The notes under the pieces are model-generated. The model had not been told where the DNA came from and made no database searches. It was given only the letters and a program-made list of their open reading frames with translations. The position numbers and the translations under genes were made by a program. Below are positions 29,772-55,863 of a stretch of 64,000 bases of DNA, in pieces (positions within the stretch are counted from its first letter, which is position 1; the number at the start of each line of letters is the position of its first letter). This stretch comes from a virus. The stretch lies in IMG/VR virus record IMGVR_UViG_3300020380_000001, positions 62,001 to 126,000 of that record. One strand, 5' to 3'.

Positions 29772-30812
29772 ATGCCAAATCATTATGGAATTAGCGTAGT
29801 GGGTGCTGAACCCGGACAGCCACCAACATCCGGTGGTCCTACACTAGAAGCATTTATGTTCGATACATTCGAAGACGCTGTGCCGTTTATAGCTAGTTAT
29901 GAGCCGCCTACGAATTTCGAAGTGTTTCAGACATGGAACCGTTTCTCTAATAACCTTTTCTTTGAACCCGGCGACCCGTTGACCAATGGCGCAGGCGCGT
30001 TTATTTACAACTCATCAGCAGACCGCATACAGTGCACGGCTAATACTACCCAATTTGTTGGATTCTCAAGCCCAACCAAAACCCGTAACGTGACAATTGA
30101 AGTCACAGTTGGCTCTACCGCACAAGATGATGATGCGCTGGCTGTTATTGTTGCCCATGAGCCTTACACTAACGCCGAGGGAAATCCAGCTAGTAGGTTC
30201 TTAGCCGTCATGCGACACACTGGCGGGTTGGTACTAGGTCAAGGCGCAGGTCAATATTATCTGGTGTGTTTGTCTTATAATGATCCTGATTTTACCGGGG
30301 GCGGTTACTTACCTCTCGGCAGTCCGGTAAACTGGAACAACGGCCGTAATTCAAACAACGGTGGCTGGGCATCAAGCGGTAAAAGTAGGATTCGCATAGA
30401 ACGCGAGGGGCCGGTGATACGCACTTGGGCAACACCGTTTTTAAACCAAACATTAGCTGCGATGTCGGAGATAGATCCTAGTGAATACAATCCTAACAGC
30501 ATTATCAACATTAACACCAGCAATTATCCTGAGCTTGCGTGGGTAGGCGCTAATGAGTTGGCTTTTGGCTATGGATGCCAGTCCCAGGACGATGCATACT
30601 TCGCAAATATAGAAATAGAAGGCGGCCTGCTAAACGATACTATTTTTGTGGCGTCTACTAACAGTGTTTACAAATACAACTACGACACAGGTGAATGGGA
30701 TATTGTGGAAGGCGAAACTGTGCAGAGTCGCTTAGGTAACCGCATCGATATAGTTAACCCGAACACTGGTAAAAAGTACGTCGTTGACATAAACGGTAAC
30801 TTAATAACTTAA
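29772..30812 (+). CDS. Probable virion surface or adhesin-type protein, 346 aa
   Basis: A beta-rich, Asn/Gly/Ser/Thr-rich protein with few lysines. The centre (FLAVMRHTGGLVLGQG, GKSRIRIEREGPVIRTWA, YFANIEIEGG) looks like a jelly-roll or concanavalin-type fold, and the C-terminal 60 residues (VYKYNYDTGEWDIVEGE...NTGKKYVVDINGN) resemble a small beta-domain. Such proteins are often fiber tips or capsid decorations. It has its own late-promoter-like element and follows a terminator, so it is an isolated late gene inside the metabolic block, as expected of a receptor-binding or host-range cassette. No family assigned. Confidence 0.5.
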   Translation: MPNHYGISVVGAEPGQPPTSGGPTLEAFMFDTFEDAVPFIASYEPPTNFEVFQTWNRFSNNLFFEPGDPLTNGAGAFIYNSSADRIQCTANTTQFVGFSSPTKTRNVTIEVTVGSTAQDDDALAVIVAHEPYTNAEGNPASRFLAVMRHTGGLVLGQGAGQYYLVCLSYNDPDFTGGGYLPLGSPVNWNNGRNSNNGGWASSGKSRIRIEREGPVIRTWATPFLNQTLAAMSEIDPSEYNPNSIININTSNYPELAWVGANELAFGYGCQSQDDAYFANIEIEGGLLNDTIFVASTNSVYKYNYDTGEWDIVEGETVQSRLGNRIDIVNPNTGKKYVVDINGNLIT

Positions 30813-39066: not shown

Positions 39067-39097
39067 TTAAAACAAAAACCTATCCGTGGAGGATATA

Positions 39098-40153
39098 ATG
39101 TCAAGTAAAAAACACAAGTTAGCTGTCGTTATTGGCCGCTTTCAACTGTTCACCCAATCTCATATGTCAATGATCGAAGAAGCTTTAGATGTAGCGGATA
39201 ACGTCATCGTATTAGTTGGGTCCATCAACCGATCTCAAAGTTTGTCTAACCCGTTTAATTACGAAGAACGCAGAGAAATGATCCGTAAGTCATTACGTGG
39301 TGATTCACTCTACCGTGTCGAAATTAAAGGTGTGAATGACTACATGTACGTAGAGTATGACTGGGAGTCTGAAGTTCAACGCGTTGTCCACGAGCATGCT
39401 CAACGATTACGCATTACGTCGAACAAAGACATTGTCCTTGTGGGTCATATCAAAGATAATACAAGTTACTACCTGCGCTCGTTCCCTACTTGGGATATGC
39501 ATGATGTCAGTCTTCTTAACAACGGCGAAAATGCTACCGAGCATCGCAACCGTTACTTTAAAGAAGGCACGGTAAGTGATTCACTGCCAAGCGGTACAGT
39601 CGGCTTTTTAGAAGAGTACAAAGATGGCGAAGGGTTTGAATGGATGCAAGGTCACATCGCTGGCATTGAAGAATTTCAAGCACCGTATAAGGACTTGCCT
39701 TATGGTATGACATTCCAGACAGGCGACGCGCTAGTAATCAACCGCGGACACATTTTAATGGTAGAACGCGGTCAACATCCGGGCTATGGTCAATGGGCTT
39801 TGCCAGGAGGCTTTAAGCACCCAGGTGAATGGGCACGGGATTGCATTTTGCGTGAGTTGGAAGAAGAGACTCTAATAAAAGTAGGTCCTAAGGCGCTGAA
39901 AGGCGCGTATAAAGGCAAGCGGTTTTTTGAAGGCCCTGGACGCGACGATCGTGGTGACTTGAGTACCCATGTTGGTTTGTTCATCCTAGACGAAGACAAG
40001 CTGCCAAAAGTGAAAGGCGCTGACGATGCCAAAAAAGCTCGCTGGATACCTTTCGCGCAATATCGAAGAATGAGCAAAGTCTTGTTCGCTGACCACTATT
40101 TCATTATCGATCAGATGTTGAAGAGCGGTTACGGCACAGGCTTTACTTTATAG
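39098..40153 (+). CDS. natV: Bifunctional NMN adenylyltransferase / Nudix hydrolase, 351 aa
   Basis: The N-terminal domain is a NadM-type adenylyltransferase: GRFQLFTQSHM at residues 13-23 carries the T-x-x-H form of the nucleotidyl-transfer motif and is followed by VLVGSINRS. It would join NMN and ATP to make NAD. The C-terminal domain has a Nudix box from G237 (GGFKHPGEW...RELEEET). Phage KVP40 encodes the same fusion, the source of the symbol. The Nudix part may hydrolyse ADP-ribose or oxidised nucleotides. ATG 39098 follows GGAGG. nadV lies 62 bases downstream behind a near-identical ribosome-binding region. Confidence 0.9.
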   Translation: MSSKKHKLAVVIGRFQLFTQSHMSMIEEALDVADNVIVLVGSINRSQSLSNPFNYEERREMIRKSLRGDSLYRVEIKGVNDYMYVEYDWESEVQRVVHEHAQRLRITSNKDIVLVGHIKDNTSYYLRSFPTWDMHDVSLLNNGENATEHRNRYFKEGTVSDSLPSGTVGFLEEYKDGEGFEWMQGHIAGIEEFQAPYKDLPYGMTFQTGDALVINRGHILMVERGQHPGYGQWALPGGFKHPGEWARDCILRELEEETLIKVGPKALKGAYKGKRFFEGPGRDDRGDLSTHVGLFILDEDKLPKVKGADDAKKARWIPFAQYRRMSKVLFADHYFIIDQMLKSGYGTGFTL

Positions 40154-40215
40154 GCGCAGAGCCGGGGCATGGTGCCCTTATTTTAAGAAAACAACAACGA
40201 TCCGTGGAGGATACT

Positions 40216-41646
40216 ATGAAACAAATACCATTAATTTTTAAAACTGATTCGTATAAAACTGGTCACTTTGAACAGATGAACCGTGATGCAGATCGAATTT
40301 ACATTTATGGCGAAAGTCGTTATGGATTCGATAACCTAGTATGGTACGGCCTGCAAGGTATCATAAAACTGCACCTCACGGAAACGATTACTGTCGAATC
40401 TGTGGAACAGATGCGCCGCTTTACTGAAGCGCACGGCACGTCATTTAACTATGACGGCTGGATGGACATCGCAGTTAACTTTGAAGGAAAGCTACCGTTT
40501 ACCATTCGTGCATTGCCCGAGGGTATGGTAGTACCTAGTAGAACGCCTGTATTTGTACTTTACAATGAAGGCGGAAAGCGCACTTCGTGGCTTATACCTT
40601 ATTTTGAAGCATTGCTTCAGCGAGTATGGTATCCTACGGTAGTTGCGTCTAAGGATCTTGAGAAGTATGCAATGTTACGCAAATGGGCCGAAAAGTCGGT
40701 TGATGATGTTGATGCCTACTTGGCGTTTGCATTACACGACTTTGGCGCACGCGGTGCAAGCTCTAGCGAAACGGCAGCAATCGGTGGATCGGCTCACCTT
40801 ATGGGGATGTTCCGTGGAACTGACACATTAGAAGGTGCTTGGTTTGCCAAAGAAGCATATGGTCTAAACGACGATGTCGCCGGCTACTCGGTTAACGCTA
40901 TAGAACACAATGTAGTTCTGTCGCATGGCGTTGAGAATGAGTATAATCTGTTTAAAGATTTAATTGACATGTATTTGCCTGCCGGAAAAATCATCAGTAT
41001 CGTGAGTGACACTCGTGATATAGATGCTGCGGTTGATTGGTATATTGCCAATCAAGACTACATTGCTGACCAAGCTGCCAAAGGCGGCGAAGGCGCCCGC
41101 GTTGTAGGCCGCCCTGACTCGGGCGACGCGATTGAGGTTCCGGTAAGAGTGGTTAAAAAGCTCATTAAAGGCATGAGCAAGTACGTCACTAAGAACGACA
41201 AGGGTTACCTTGTGTTGCCTAGCTGGATGCGTGTTATCCAAGGTGATGGTGTTGAGCTTGAGCAAATGGACGCGATCCATACTTTGCTTACTGACGCTGG
41301 CATCTCTGCTGAAAACATTATATTCGGGCAAGGTGGTTCTATGTTGCAAGCGCACGGTCGTGATGACGCGGGCTTTGCGATGAAAATGTCTGCGATGGAA
41401 ATTGATGGCAAAATGGTTAAAACAGCCAAGAAGCCAAAAACGGATACTCGCAAGCACAGCCGTGAAGGTTACTTTAAGGTTGCGCGAGACGAAAACGGTG
41501 ACATTGTTACACTAGCTACTGATGATCCAGAGAACTCTGGCTTACTAGAAGTTGTGTATTCAAATGGTGAATTGATTAGAGATATGACATTCGACCAAGT
41601 ACGTGCCAACTACGAAATCTACGTTAATAAGAAATGGAACTGTTAA
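40216..41646 (+). CDS. nadV: Nicotinamide phosphoribosyltransferase, 476 aa
   Basis: Converts nicotinamide and PRPP to NMN, which the preceding enzyme turns into NAD. Family landmarks are DSYKTGHF at the N-terminus, DFGARGASSSETA, the catalytic histidine H231 in NAIEHNV, RPDSGD with D301, and IFGQGGSMLQ. Length (476) agrees with bacterial and human NAMPT. All active-site residues I can check are present. It follows natV with a shared leader and ends at a strong terminator, forming a two-gene NAD salvage unit that could counter NAD-depleting host defences. Confidence 0.95.
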   Translation: MKQIPLIFKTDSYKTGHFEQMNRDADRIYIYGESRYGFDNLVWYGLQGIIKLHLTETITVESVEQMRRFTEAHGTSFNYDGWMDIAVNFEGKLPFTIRALPEGMVVPSRTPVFVLYNEGGKRTSWLIPYFEALLQRVWYPTVVASKDLEKYAMLRKWAEKSVDDVDAYLAFALHDFGARGASSSETAAIGGSAHLMGMFRGTDTLEGAWFAKEAYGLNDDVAGYSVNAIEHNVVLSHGVENEYNLFKDLIDMYLPAGKIISIVSDTRDIDAAVDWYIANQDYIADQAAKGGEGARVVGRPDSGDAIEVPVRVVKKLIKGMSKYVTKNDKGYLVLPSWMRVIQGDGVELEQMDAIHTLLTDAGISAENIIFGQGGSMLQAHGRDDAGFAMKMSAMEIDGKMVKTAKKPKTDTRKHSREGYFKVARDENGDIVTLATDDPENSGLLEVVYSNGELIRDMTFDQVRANYEIYVNKKWNC

Positions 41647-52679: not shown

Positions 52680-52997
52680 ATGATTCATAATGTTCGAGTG
52701 TATACCTCGCGCGAGCTGGCTGCTGAAGAAATAGACGAGTTGATAGACGCTGTGGATTACGTTGTAGACGTAGTGCCGCGTGAGTTCTACGACAGTGAAC
52801 ACAATATGCAAGTGAGCTACCTTAACGTATACGATCAAGAAGAAGGTGACTGGGTATATGAGATGTCAGTAGCGCGTATGCTACAAGACACAGACGCACA
52901 AGAAATCATCGAAATACTAAGTGAGTTCCTGGATGCAGACTTTGACTTAGACGCATCCTTTGAAGAAGATGAATGCGAGGCGTGCCGTGCCGATTAA
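52680..52997 (+). CDS. Acidic hypothetical protein, 105 aa
   Basis: Very acidic in the C-terminal half (DADFDLDASFEEDECEACRAD). The ATG follows an AACGGGGC site. An inverted repeat (GAAAGT...ACTTTC) and TTGAAA lie upstream in the divergent gap. Its last codons overlap the start of the first shared-N-terminus protein. No family recognised. Confidence 0.55.
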   Translation: MIHNVRVYTSRELAAEEIDELIDAVDYVVDVVPREFYDSEHNMQVSYLNVYDQEEGDWVYEMSVARMLQDTDAQEIIEILSEFLDADFDLDASFEEDECEACRAD

Positions 52998-54174
52998 ATT
53001 TAGTGGTCCTGTGAAACCGCGAAAACTAAAATCACCTGATCCGATTAATATGCCTGTAGTGCGTGACAACAAAGCGCAACGAGTACGAAGCGATGTTGTG
53101 TACTACAAAGCAAATGGTGAATTGCCGCGAGTTGAGCCAAACTGGACTGCTATGTCCGAATACTACCAGATTCCTGGCCACACAGCAAACGGCGGGGTAG
53201 ACTCAGTTGACGTAAACGGCGACATAATGGCTGTAATGTCTTCGGCAACTAACACAGTTTATATCTTTAAGAAAGACGTAAACGGCGACTACCAACAAAC
53301 TGATTCAACCTCGCAATCTGGCGGCGATTATTCAGACATTCACCTTATGCCTGTTGAAGGCAAGGTTGTATACTCTGCGCCTTTGTCAAATAGTAACGAG
53401 GGGCGATTAGTTGCTATGGACTTGGACTTTACAACAGGCATCCTGGACCAGGCATCTAGAACAGTTTATCCATTAAGTACCGGGAGAGACAACTCGTACG
53501 ACGGTCGTGGTATAATTAGTATCGGAAATACCTTATTCAGTGGCGCACCGGGGTATTACTTGAGCAGTGCCAGCGCACGTGGTGGCCTGTTATCGTTCCG
53601 TGACCCTGCGTCCGGCGCATTAAAGCCCCTTGACGTGTCTTACTTAGGCGGCTTAAATGAATCAAATAATCATGTTTTCGGTAACCGTATATATAACGAA
53701 GATGGTTTGTTCGCTAACACACTAGCAACTGATGGTAACCGCCTACTAGTACTTGCGCCTGGTGCTGCGTCACTCAACACAGCCGATAACGGTTATATAT
53801 CTGTATTCGACTATGACGACACGAATCAGTCACTAACAGAGATACAGAAGATAGATAACCCGGCGCTGCCGCAGTATGCAGGAACCCAAGCTTCAATAAG
53901 AGCCATAGCCGCACTGAATGGTAAAATGCTTGCGCTACTCAATGTGGGCGGTCCGGACAACGACTACGACCCCTTACGGACGTCTTTGGTTGAATATATA
54001 TGGGACGGTAGTGCGTATAATCAATCAGGATGGTCGGATGTAGTGTTATCCCCTGATTGGACGGCTAACAGTACAGACAGCGCAATAGCCCATATGACTA
54101 TGCTAAGTGATACTGAACTATTAATACCCGGTACTAATATCTCGGGTGGCAAAATTTATAAGGTAACAAGATAA
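52987..54174 (+). CDS. Shared-N-terminus protein 1 with beta-propeller-like domain, 395 aa
   Basis: I start it at GTG 52987 because the product then begins PIKFSGPVKPRKLKSPDPIN, matching the start of the next two proteins almost residue for residue over about 45 residues. After this module comes a Gly/Ser/Asp-rich beta-repeat region (SVDVNGDIMAVMSSATNTVYIFKKDVNG and similar), consistent with a six- or seven-bladed propeller of the kelch or FG-GAP kind. No enzyme motifs. The stop overlaps the next ATG in TAATG. Likely virion-displayed or surface-binding, by analogy only. Confidence 0.6.
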   Translation: MPIKFSGPVKPRKLKSPDPINMPVVRDNKAQRVRSDVVYYKANGELPRVEPNWTAMSEYYQIPGHTANGGVDSVDVNGDIMAVMSSATNTVYIFKKDVNGDYQQTDSTSQSGGDYSDIHLMPVEGKVVYSAPLSNSNEGRLVAMDLDFTTGILDQASRTVYPLSTGRDNSYDGRGIISIGNTLFSGAPGYYLSSASARGGLLSFRDPASGALKPLDVSYLGGLNESNNHVFGNRIYNEDGLFANTLATDGNRLLVLAPGAASLNTADNGYISVFDYDDTNQSLTEIQKIDNPALPQYAGTQASIRAIAALNGKMLALLNVGGPDNDYDPLRTSLVEYIWDGSAYNQSGWSDVVLSPDWTANSTDSAIAHMTMLSDTELLIPGTNISGGKIYKVTR

Positions 54175-54914
54175 TGCCAATTAAATTTACCGGCCCCGTA
54201 AAGCCGAAAAAACTAAAATCACCCGATCCGATTAATATGCCTATAGTAAGGAATGACAAAGTGCCAAAGATTAAATCTGAAGTATTGTACTATAAAGACA
54301 ACGGTGAGATGCCACCAACCGGCGAACGCGTTCCTGAAAGTAGACTATCACGTATTGACTGGAAAGTAGCTGGAGACAAACTCTCTGTGCTTGACTACCA
54401 AACAGGTATTGAGTACTTGCGATTAAGTGAATCAGTCGGTCGATCAATTGATAATGTCAGTGCTAACTTTGGTCCTGGTGGCGACTTCGAAGGCTGGCGC
54501 CTAGCTACTGAAGCAGAGATCAATTCTTTTATGGATTACGTAGTTGCATCAGGCGGTTCAGGTCCTGGTTTTACCACTGACGGACAGAGCGCAAACGTTA
54601 GCACATCTCTACAAGAGTGGCAGGACTTTGTTCGTATAATGGGCTACACCTACACAGTATCAGACAGACTGCACTCGTTTGCTATATTCTACGACGGATC
54701 CGAAATACTTAACTCGGGTGTGTTAGGATACCTAAGCGGCGATGCGCGTTTTAGACGTAGTCACAACGATGGCGGCATTGACAATAATACTTCAAGTTCA
54801 TTGGTATCTGCAGGTGTGTGGATAGTAAATGACGGCGGCGTTAGTATTGAGTCCATTGAATATCCTGAACTCAATAAAAACAACCCTAACTCGCCGTATA
54901 ATCAAGGAGGCTAA
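54174..54914 (+). CDS. Shared-N-terminus protein 2 with DUF1566/lectin-like domain, 246 aa
   Basis: The N-terminal module is nearly identical to the other two (PIKFTGPVKPKKLKSPDPIN). The second half reads DYQTGIEYLRLSES...GGDFEGWRLATEAEINSF, which follows the 'GlxWlrl...GWRlAxxxE' pattern of DUF1566 and C-type-lectin-like proteins. It ends KNNPNSPYNQGG. Such domains bind sugars or other surfaces. It follows protein 1 in a TAATG overlap and precedes protein 3 by two bases. Confidence 0.6.
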   Translation: MPIKFTGPVKPKKLKSPDPINMPIVRNDKVPKIKSEVLYYKDNGEMPPTGERVPESRLSRIDWKVAGDKLSVLDYQTGIEYLRLSESVGRSIDNVSANFGPGGDFEGWRLATEAEINSFMDYVVASGGSGPGFTTDGQSANVSTSLQEWQDFVRIMGYTYTVSDRLHSFAIFYDGSEILNSGVLGYLSGDARFRRSHNDGGIDNNTSSSLVSAGVWIVNDGGVSIESIEYPELNKNNPNSPYNQGG

Positions 54915-54916
54915 TT

Positions 54917-55645
54917 GTGCCAATTAAATTTACTGGTCCGGTAAAGCCAAAAAAACTAAAATCGCCTGATCCGATTAATATGCCTGTAGTGCGTGATAAT
55001 AAGGCGCCGCGTGTTAAGCAAGACGTCGAGTACTTCAAAGTACACGGCACGATGCCTACTGTGGCACCGCCATTAGGACCACCGGAAGGACAAACAATAG
55101 GTGCCGCTGATATAGCACAAGCAGGCGATAATAAAGCTTTTATTGATTTCCGTACTGGGCTGGAATGGGTTCGACTATCGAGAACAAATGCGTTTACTGA
55201 TGCGACTATCCAAGCTGAGCTACAGGCAGGCGGTCAATTCGAAGGGTTTCGTATTGCTAACGAGGCTGAAACGGATTCGTTACTTCGCACGATTACGCCT
55301 AATTATTTTAACCCCGTTCATGTCTATTCAGTAGATACGCACTACATTGTGCCGGAACAATGGAACAATTGGAATTCCATAATGGGCATAACAGGTAACA
55401 AATACGGAAGGAACTGGTCGTACGGTATATACGACACCGGATCTGGCTACAAGCACGGCGGAACTGACTATTTTGCTGAATCTAATAGGCTGCCTAATAG
55501 GCTGATGAAGTTCAATAAAGATGATGCCCTTGACTTTGATTTTATGGGCATATTCTTAGTGTCAGACGGAGGGAACACCTTGTTGAGTCAAGAGTTCCCT
55601 CATTACATGGCTAACAACCCTAACTCGCCGTATAATGCGGGTTAA
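54917..55645 (+). CDS. Shared-N-terminus protein 3 with DUF1566/lectin-like domain, 242 aa
   Basis: Begins at GTG 54917 with AAGGAGG nearby. The first 45 residues repeat the common module. The C-terminal domain (DFRTGLEWVRLSRT...GGQFEGFRIANEAETDSLL) is related to protein 2 but diverged, and both end NNPNSPYN. The shared module across three different C-termini argues for a common attachment or targeting role, with swapped tips. Confidence 0.6.
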   Translation: MPIKFTGPVKPKKLKSPDPINMPVVRDNKAPRVKQDVEYFKVHGTMPTVAPPLGPPEGQTIGAADIAQAGDNKAFIDFRTGLEWVRLSRTNAFTDATIQAELQAGGQFEGFRIANEAETDSLLRTITPNYFNPVHVYSVDTHYIVPEQWNNWNSIMGITGNKYGRNWSYGIYDTGSGYKHGGTDYFAESNRLPNRLMKFNKDDALDFDFMGIFLVSDGGNTLLSQEFPHYMANNPNSPYNAG

Positions 55646-55863
55646 ATAGACTTAACTAGGGCAGCAATACCACGCCATGATTTGTATTGCTGCTCTACTT
55701 CTAAAAGAGTATCAAACTCTTTGTAACCAGGCCTACCAAAGTTATATGCACGAGCCGCAGCATTGTCGGTAACCATAAGCCAACGATCACCTAACTTTTC
55801 AAGTGTCATTTTGTTACCGCGCGACTCTGTGTAAAATTTGTTTTTGCTAAGCATCTGAATCAT
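55642..55863 (-). CDS. Small hypothetical protein, minus strand, 73 aa
   Basis: AAGG lies seven bases before ATG 55863, and a near-perfect sigma70 promoter lies upstream on the minus strand. The product is mixed alpha/beta with Trp and Tyr residues (GDRWLMVTDNAAARAYNFGRPGYKEF). It ends four bases into the convergent gene. No family recognised. Confidence 0.65.
   Translation of the reverse strand: MIQMLSKNKFYTESRGNKMTLEKLGDRWLMVTDNAAARAYNFGRPGYKEFDTLLEVEQQYKSWRGIAALVKSI

Follow-up and report, generated by a model that had tools for sequence, protein, structure and literature searches.

A common N-terminal module on small proteins with different bodies at two loci of a jumbo phage

Secondary receptor-binding proteins (RBPs) of Klebsiella phages of the KP32, JD001, Menlow and phiK64-1 groups carry an N-terminal 'conserved peptide' of 7 to about 70 aa, which was described for each RBP position and phage group, and their bodies are depolymerases (Latka 2019, PMC6872550). 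In the branched tail fibres of RaK2 and phiK64-1 (Alcyoneusvirus), the N-termini are folded domains similar to D1/XD of the CBA120 tailspike (PMC10253068). The genes that we describe here resemble the Klebsiella RBPs in having a short conserved, putative attachment peptide followed by a variable part that may bind receptors, in occurring several per phage and in having tips that differ among relatives (PMC6872550). Secondary RBPs are recognised by a short peptide conserved at the N-terminus and a distal part that varies, and the module genes have both. Unlike the Klebsiella case, however, a single module is present on 5-10 small paralogues at two distant loci, its codons 2-24 cluster by genome, and no anchor or T4gp10-like partner was identified. 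The likeness to RaK2/phiK64-1 is looser: these too are jumbo phages, and their numerous tail-fibre proteins are linked through N-terminal domains that are conserved (PMC10253068), whereas the module reported here has 47 aa and neither a confident fold nor a PDB match. The arrangement is of a known kind but unusually multi-copy, many paralogues sharing one plug, and it bears on how jumbo phages carry and renew many adhesins. In this system plug, tips and likely exchange points can be read from the sequence, the first ~24 codons going by genome and the tips by orthology.

The window, a 64-kb stretch covering bases 62001-126000 of a 306.5-kb IMG/VR record (G000), belongs to a giant marine phage distantly related to Pseudomonas phage PA5oct. 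Three tandem ORFs lie there head to tail with one shared start (Table 1), and the preliminary description had already proposed for them a common N-terminal module with high identity in the DNA. Both proposals were borne out: the ORFs and a direct repeat of 139 nt (at 52988, 54175 and 54918; 73-74% identity to the reference copy) delimit a module of 47 codons, and the sequence GATCCGATTAATATGCC occurs exactly three times in the whole window, once in each gene (53038, 54225 and 54968), and not at all in shuffled sequence. Translation of gene 1 most likely starts at the GTG at 52987 and not at the mechanically assigned TTG at 52960, because a relative has an ATG at exactly that place. Genes 2 and 3 have moreover a 24-nt 3' end in common, AACAACCCTAACTCGCCGTATAAT.

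Table 1. Features of the window locus (positions in the 64-kb window)
Feature	Position	Strand	Basis
Gene 1: 47-aa module and predicted beta-propeller body, 395 aa	52987..54174	+	ORF; start according to the relative's ATG; AlphaFold2/Foldseek propeller
Gene 2: module and DUF1566/Lcl_C-like body, 246 aa	54174..54914	+	ORF; homology to gene 3; orthologue body 96% identical
Gene 3: module and DUF1566/Lcl_C-like body, 242 aa	54917..55645	+	ORF; body of the relative's orthologue 85% identical
Module copy 1, 47 codons	52987..53127	+	Direct repeat D1; alignment; pLDDT 34-39 over most
Module copy 2, 47 codons	54174..54314	+	Direct repeat; alignment
Module copy 3, 47 codons	54917..55057	+	Direct repeat; alignment
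Codons 2-24 of module copy 1, genome-clustering stretch (same codons in copies 2 and 3)	52990..53058	+	Identity comparison; permutation
Predicted beta-propeller body of gene 1	53128..54171	+	AlphaFold2; Foldseek
DUF1566/Lcl_C-like body of gene 2	54315..54911	+	Homology to paralogue wA2, itself an Lcl_C match with E 0.032
DUF1566/Lcl_C-like body of gene 3	55058..55642	+	Homology to paralogue wA2, as for gene 2
Shared 24-nt 3' end, gene 2 (NNPNSPYN)	54879..54902	+	Repeat D2
Shared 24-nt 3' end, gene 3	55613..55636	+	Repeat D2
Junction; here two additional complete module genes (384 and 255 aa) are present in the relative	55636..55648		blastn of the two loci; ORFs

The body of gene 1 is a beta-propeller according to its AlphaFold2 model (pTM 0.77, much of the body above 80), which Foldseek matched to propellers in the PDB with E about 1e-8 and a query TM of about 0.5, and the viral matches included a short tail fibre protein and an Agrobacterium phage hemagglutinin. 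The bodies of genes 2 and 3 are homologous over their full length (37%, E 2e-50 with the module; 30%, 6e-23 without it), therefore the window locus has two body types and not three; the different C-terminal folds announced in the preliminary description stand for the propeller against the DUF1566-like bodies, but not for the latter two among themselves. The DUF1566 assignment itself fared worse. No protein reached the curated cut-off of Lcl_C/DUF1566 (PF07603), the best match having 14.9 bits (E 0.032) against 34.9, and this one sub-threshold match, to which the assignment goes back, was made by the paralogue wA2 only and by none of the window proteins. Searches of the three window proteins against Pfam and PHROGs gave no meaningful match, and none of the module proteins matched a depolymerase family. 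A match of window proteins to coronavirus S1 (E 0.009), below the cut-off of that family, was dismissed as chance. The structure model of gene 3 was poor (pLDDT 42) and too weak for a structure search, and a PDB sequence search with module and body profiles gave nothing useful.

The module family extends beyond the window. In the names used here, w stands for the window phage and r for its relative IMGVR_UViG_3300020277_000001 (G001; 310,672 bp, with 89-91% DNA identity where long collinear stretches were compared), whereas A and B are the two blocks of module genes, block B being the window locus. The search for the module in other genes gave two more in the same genome, which makes five for the window phage, and ten in G001. 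Block A of the window phage lies ~100 kb away on the other strand, at 216.1-218.4 kb of the record, and encodes a 390-aa propeller relative, whose body is 28% identical to that of gene 1, as well as a protein of 373 aa in which two parts are DUF1566-like. At the position that corresponds to the window locus, G001 encodes module proteins of 404 (395 from the supported start), 246, 245, 384 and 255 aa, and in its block A others of 263, 195, 388, 372 and 373 aa. When the module is removed, blastp at E 0.001 leaves the bodies in five unconnected groups: the propellers, the DUF1566-like proteins and the 263-aa, 195-aa and 255-aa proteins. A third record, 3300020398_000005 (G002), has the same first three genes of block A. 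Outside these three IMG/VR records the module was not found, neither in annotated phages nor in GTDB genomes, nor in 19 other records with the same neighbouring tail gene, a search done without a positive control; viral contigs searched with the body of gene 2 and a propeller profile returned only the same relatives.

All comparisons thus rest on two species (three records), all of them metagenome assemblies. Mis-assembly between the module copies is possible but not likely, because the exact stretches that they have in common do not exceed 38 nt, and the assemblies G001 and G002 are consistent over the first three block A genes. Both records end inside the module of gene A4. The two ends of G001 overlap by 66 bp within this module, which suggests a circular map broken at a module repeat.

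With ten module genes on at least five mutually unalignable bodies in the relative, the module is constant and the set of tips varies, as the preliminary description had anticipated: there are ten module genes against five, and three of the body types are absent from the window phage. The idea of changed tips needs nevertheless some qualification. The gene set differs between the two phages, but orthologous tips are not hypervariable (85-96% amino-acid identity in block B, 68-82% in block A), and change therefore occurs mainly by gain and loss of whole genes.

The module has 47 residues with the consensus PIKFTGPVKPRKLKSPDPINMPxVR..., it contains 9-12 K/R against 4-6 D/E and 7-8 prolines, and 20 of the 51 columns of its amino-acid alignment are invariant. 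The same module precedes unrelated bodies. In the comparison of rA1 with rA5, DNA windows are 75-96% identical over the module and then fall to about 10-50%. For rB2 and rA2, which belong to different blocks, the likeness is 88-100% in most of the module and drops thereafter. In the AlphaFold2 model of gene 1, residues 1-45 have a pLDDT below 50, a value that derives from a five-sequence alignment and is weak evidence of disorder. The module is probably a basic, proline-rich docking peptide, extended or disordered.

A short and basic tag could also have another destination. The internal proteins of phage T4 have a common N-terminal capsid-targeting sequence on different proteins, and the module proteins likewise show one N-terminal tag on proteins that are otherwise different. 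They might accordingly be packed in the head and injected, the tag being cut by the prohead protease. Unlike in T4, however, the cleavage motif [LI]xE is missing from residues 1-52 of all 15 module copies, although other protease specificities are possible. Moreover, where a fold can be predicted it is of an extracellular type, the propeller resembling binding folds of tail fibres and hemagglutinins rather than intracellular effectors, and block A lies between genes of the tail and fibre type. Altogether, we regard capsid targeting as quite improbable.

The preliminary description also advanced that the conserved DNA could serve as a recombination site. The five module copies of the window phage have a DNA identity of 0.85 in codons 2-24, compared with 0.82 for those of the relative, 0.80 for orthologues and 0.78 for non-orthologues; among 16 arrangements of the genome labels, the true one ranks first. 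For codons 25-47 the values are 0.85 between orthologues and 0.62-0.63 between paralogues (0.68 when all ten copies of the relative are taken). A permutation test with the 15 copies gave p 0.003 for codons 2-24 and p 0.73, that is, no genome effect, for codons 25-47, and third positions alone of codons 2-24 gave p 0.03, values to be read as guides since the permutation treats the copies as independent though they are not. When rB5 was left out, after its sequence had been seen, the p values for codons 2-24 were 0.0005 and, for third positions, 0.01, which are guides as well. Codons 2-24 consequently cluster by genome, whereas codons 25-47 and the bodies follow orthology. In this line, the 17-mer GATCCGATTAATATGCC is present in 3/3 window genes and 0/3 of their orthologues in the relative, and it is absent from the other two module genes of the window phage. 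The omitted gene rB5 (255 aa) carries a module of the window phage's type (PIKFSGPVKP), though the window phage does not have this gene, which may have come from a relative of that phage.

Could ordinary tandem duplication followed by purifying selection, with no gene conversion at all, have produced such a pattern? This question touches only the recombination part of our proposal. The strong amino-acid conservation seen in the invariant columns speaks in favour of constraint, which can by itself keep paralogues alike, and the sample is small. Against this, genome clustering is also seen at third codon positions, and the third positions of the orthologues of the three window genes are less alike in codons 2-24 (40/69) than in the bodies (549/742; Fisher p 0.007), whereas constraint alone would give the opposite. 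A junction in block A calls furthermore for recombination at the start of the module. There, the sequence of the window phage begins upstream as the flank of rA1 and continues as the body of rA3, with the switch between position -12 and codon ~10; at diagnostic sites it is A1-like in the flank and, with few exceptions, A3-like from codon 10 on. Leaving aside the direction of change, a crossover between two modules at their start would be expected to leave such a junction. Purifying selection without conversion seems therefore an unlikely explanation, and recombination at the first codons of the module is supported by two different signs in the DNA, a pattern that gene conversion together with crossover at the module would fit. 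Not all change goes through the module, however. At the window locus, the two extra complete genes of the relative are joined at a junction that lies between gene 3' ends (Table 1), and a module crossover was rejected as the source of this difference, so another route was used there; the recombination-site idea is supported by the clustered codons and by block A, but not by the window-locus junction.

The link with the virion is indirect and comes from block A. Its flanking proteins, of 664 and 949 aa, are respectively 36% identical to PA5oct gp181 over the full length and 31-37% identical to PA5oct gp179 over parts, both of which are annotated as structural from ESI-MS/MS. The remoteness of the module genes from the main virion block, as first described, is in this way correct for the window locus, but two further module genes are placed between homologues of virion genes. 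The likeness to PA5oct (NC_071039) comprises this related block of virion genes and, in the same region, a kelch-like protein (gp176) and a putative adhesin (gp175), both also annotated from ESI-MS/MS. The slot of the block A module genes is occupied there by gp180 (ESI-MS/MS), which shares its N-terminus with gp179 (31% over 61 aa). Unlike the phages studied here, PA5oct has no copy of the module, and the one pair of bodies compared directly was not homologous by sequence. That the module would also head gp175 and gp176 was considered and rejected for want of sequence support, gp175 having been directly compared with one module protein. Among the more distant relatives, several have a gene with the N-terminus of the 949-aa protein directly after the 664-aa homologue, so that the module genes seem to have been added to a conserved block of virion genes.

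From this association with the block A neighbours we infer that module proteins are attached to the virion. They might instead act in or on the infected cell, for example as polymer-binding or decoy proteins, the module being a targeting or assembly tag for another complex. Block B, outside any recognised virion block and with no Pfam match among the ten neighbours scanned, would agree with such a role, but a hydrophobic, signal-peptide-like N-terminus is missing from every module copy, the family is found also between the two conserved virion genes of block A, and the kelch-like and adhesin-like proteins of PA5oct were annotated from mass spectrometry. We give this non-virion role a low probability.

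We consider it fairly likely that the module genes encode small virion-attached adhesins or decoration proteins with a common docking peptide, whose tips are exchanged by recombination. Under this proposal, the proteins would be produced in the course of infection and anchored to the virion through the docking peptide, which would plug into one virion partner, whereas the C-terminal domains (propeller, DUF1566/Lcl_C-like and the three others of the relative) would contact polymers of the host surface or the environment. Recombination between module copies would homogenise the first ~24 codons; since every gene starts with the same DNA at its start codon, it could also insert or remove complete tips, or combine them anew, without loss of the reading frame. 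Virion location, docking partner, carbohydrate binding and a benefit for host range are here what we infer. That a single plug heads so many small paralogues at two loci points either to numerous equivalent sockets or to a few for which the proteins compete. A bolder version, which we put forward only tentatively and with some doubt, is that a single kind of virion socket occurs in many copies and takes up a mixture of up to ten different heads with the same plug, giving mosaic particles, while the DNA of the plug works as a homology cassette that makes the array grow, shrink and homogenise independently of a dedicated diversification enzyme. If true, the adhesin proposal would provide a catalogue of binding heads that are interchangeable in nature, a short peptide as candidate tag for virion attachment and a simple recombination route for changing the adhesin set without a diversity-generating retroelement.

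Some other features of these genomes deserve a mention. An RCC1-type propeller gene (426 aa), placed downstream of the fibre gene, adjoins a response-regulator-like gene of 140 aa. A further shared N-terminal module exists in this phage group: in a 424.5-kb relative, two adjacent genes both begin like the 949-aa fibre-like protein (GIGSDVQLGK type), and gp179 and gp180 of PA5oct likewise have a shared N-terminus. In the window, another gene of virion type (29772-30812) encodes a 346-aa protein with matches to tail-fibre and virion-protein PHROGs. Adjacent homologues of the lysis inhibitors RIIA and RIIB are found in this jumbo phage at 22728-26938, and a cytidyltransferase/NUDIX-type protein encoded beside a nicotinamide phosphoribosyltransferase (39086-41646) is probably part of an NAD-salvage pair.
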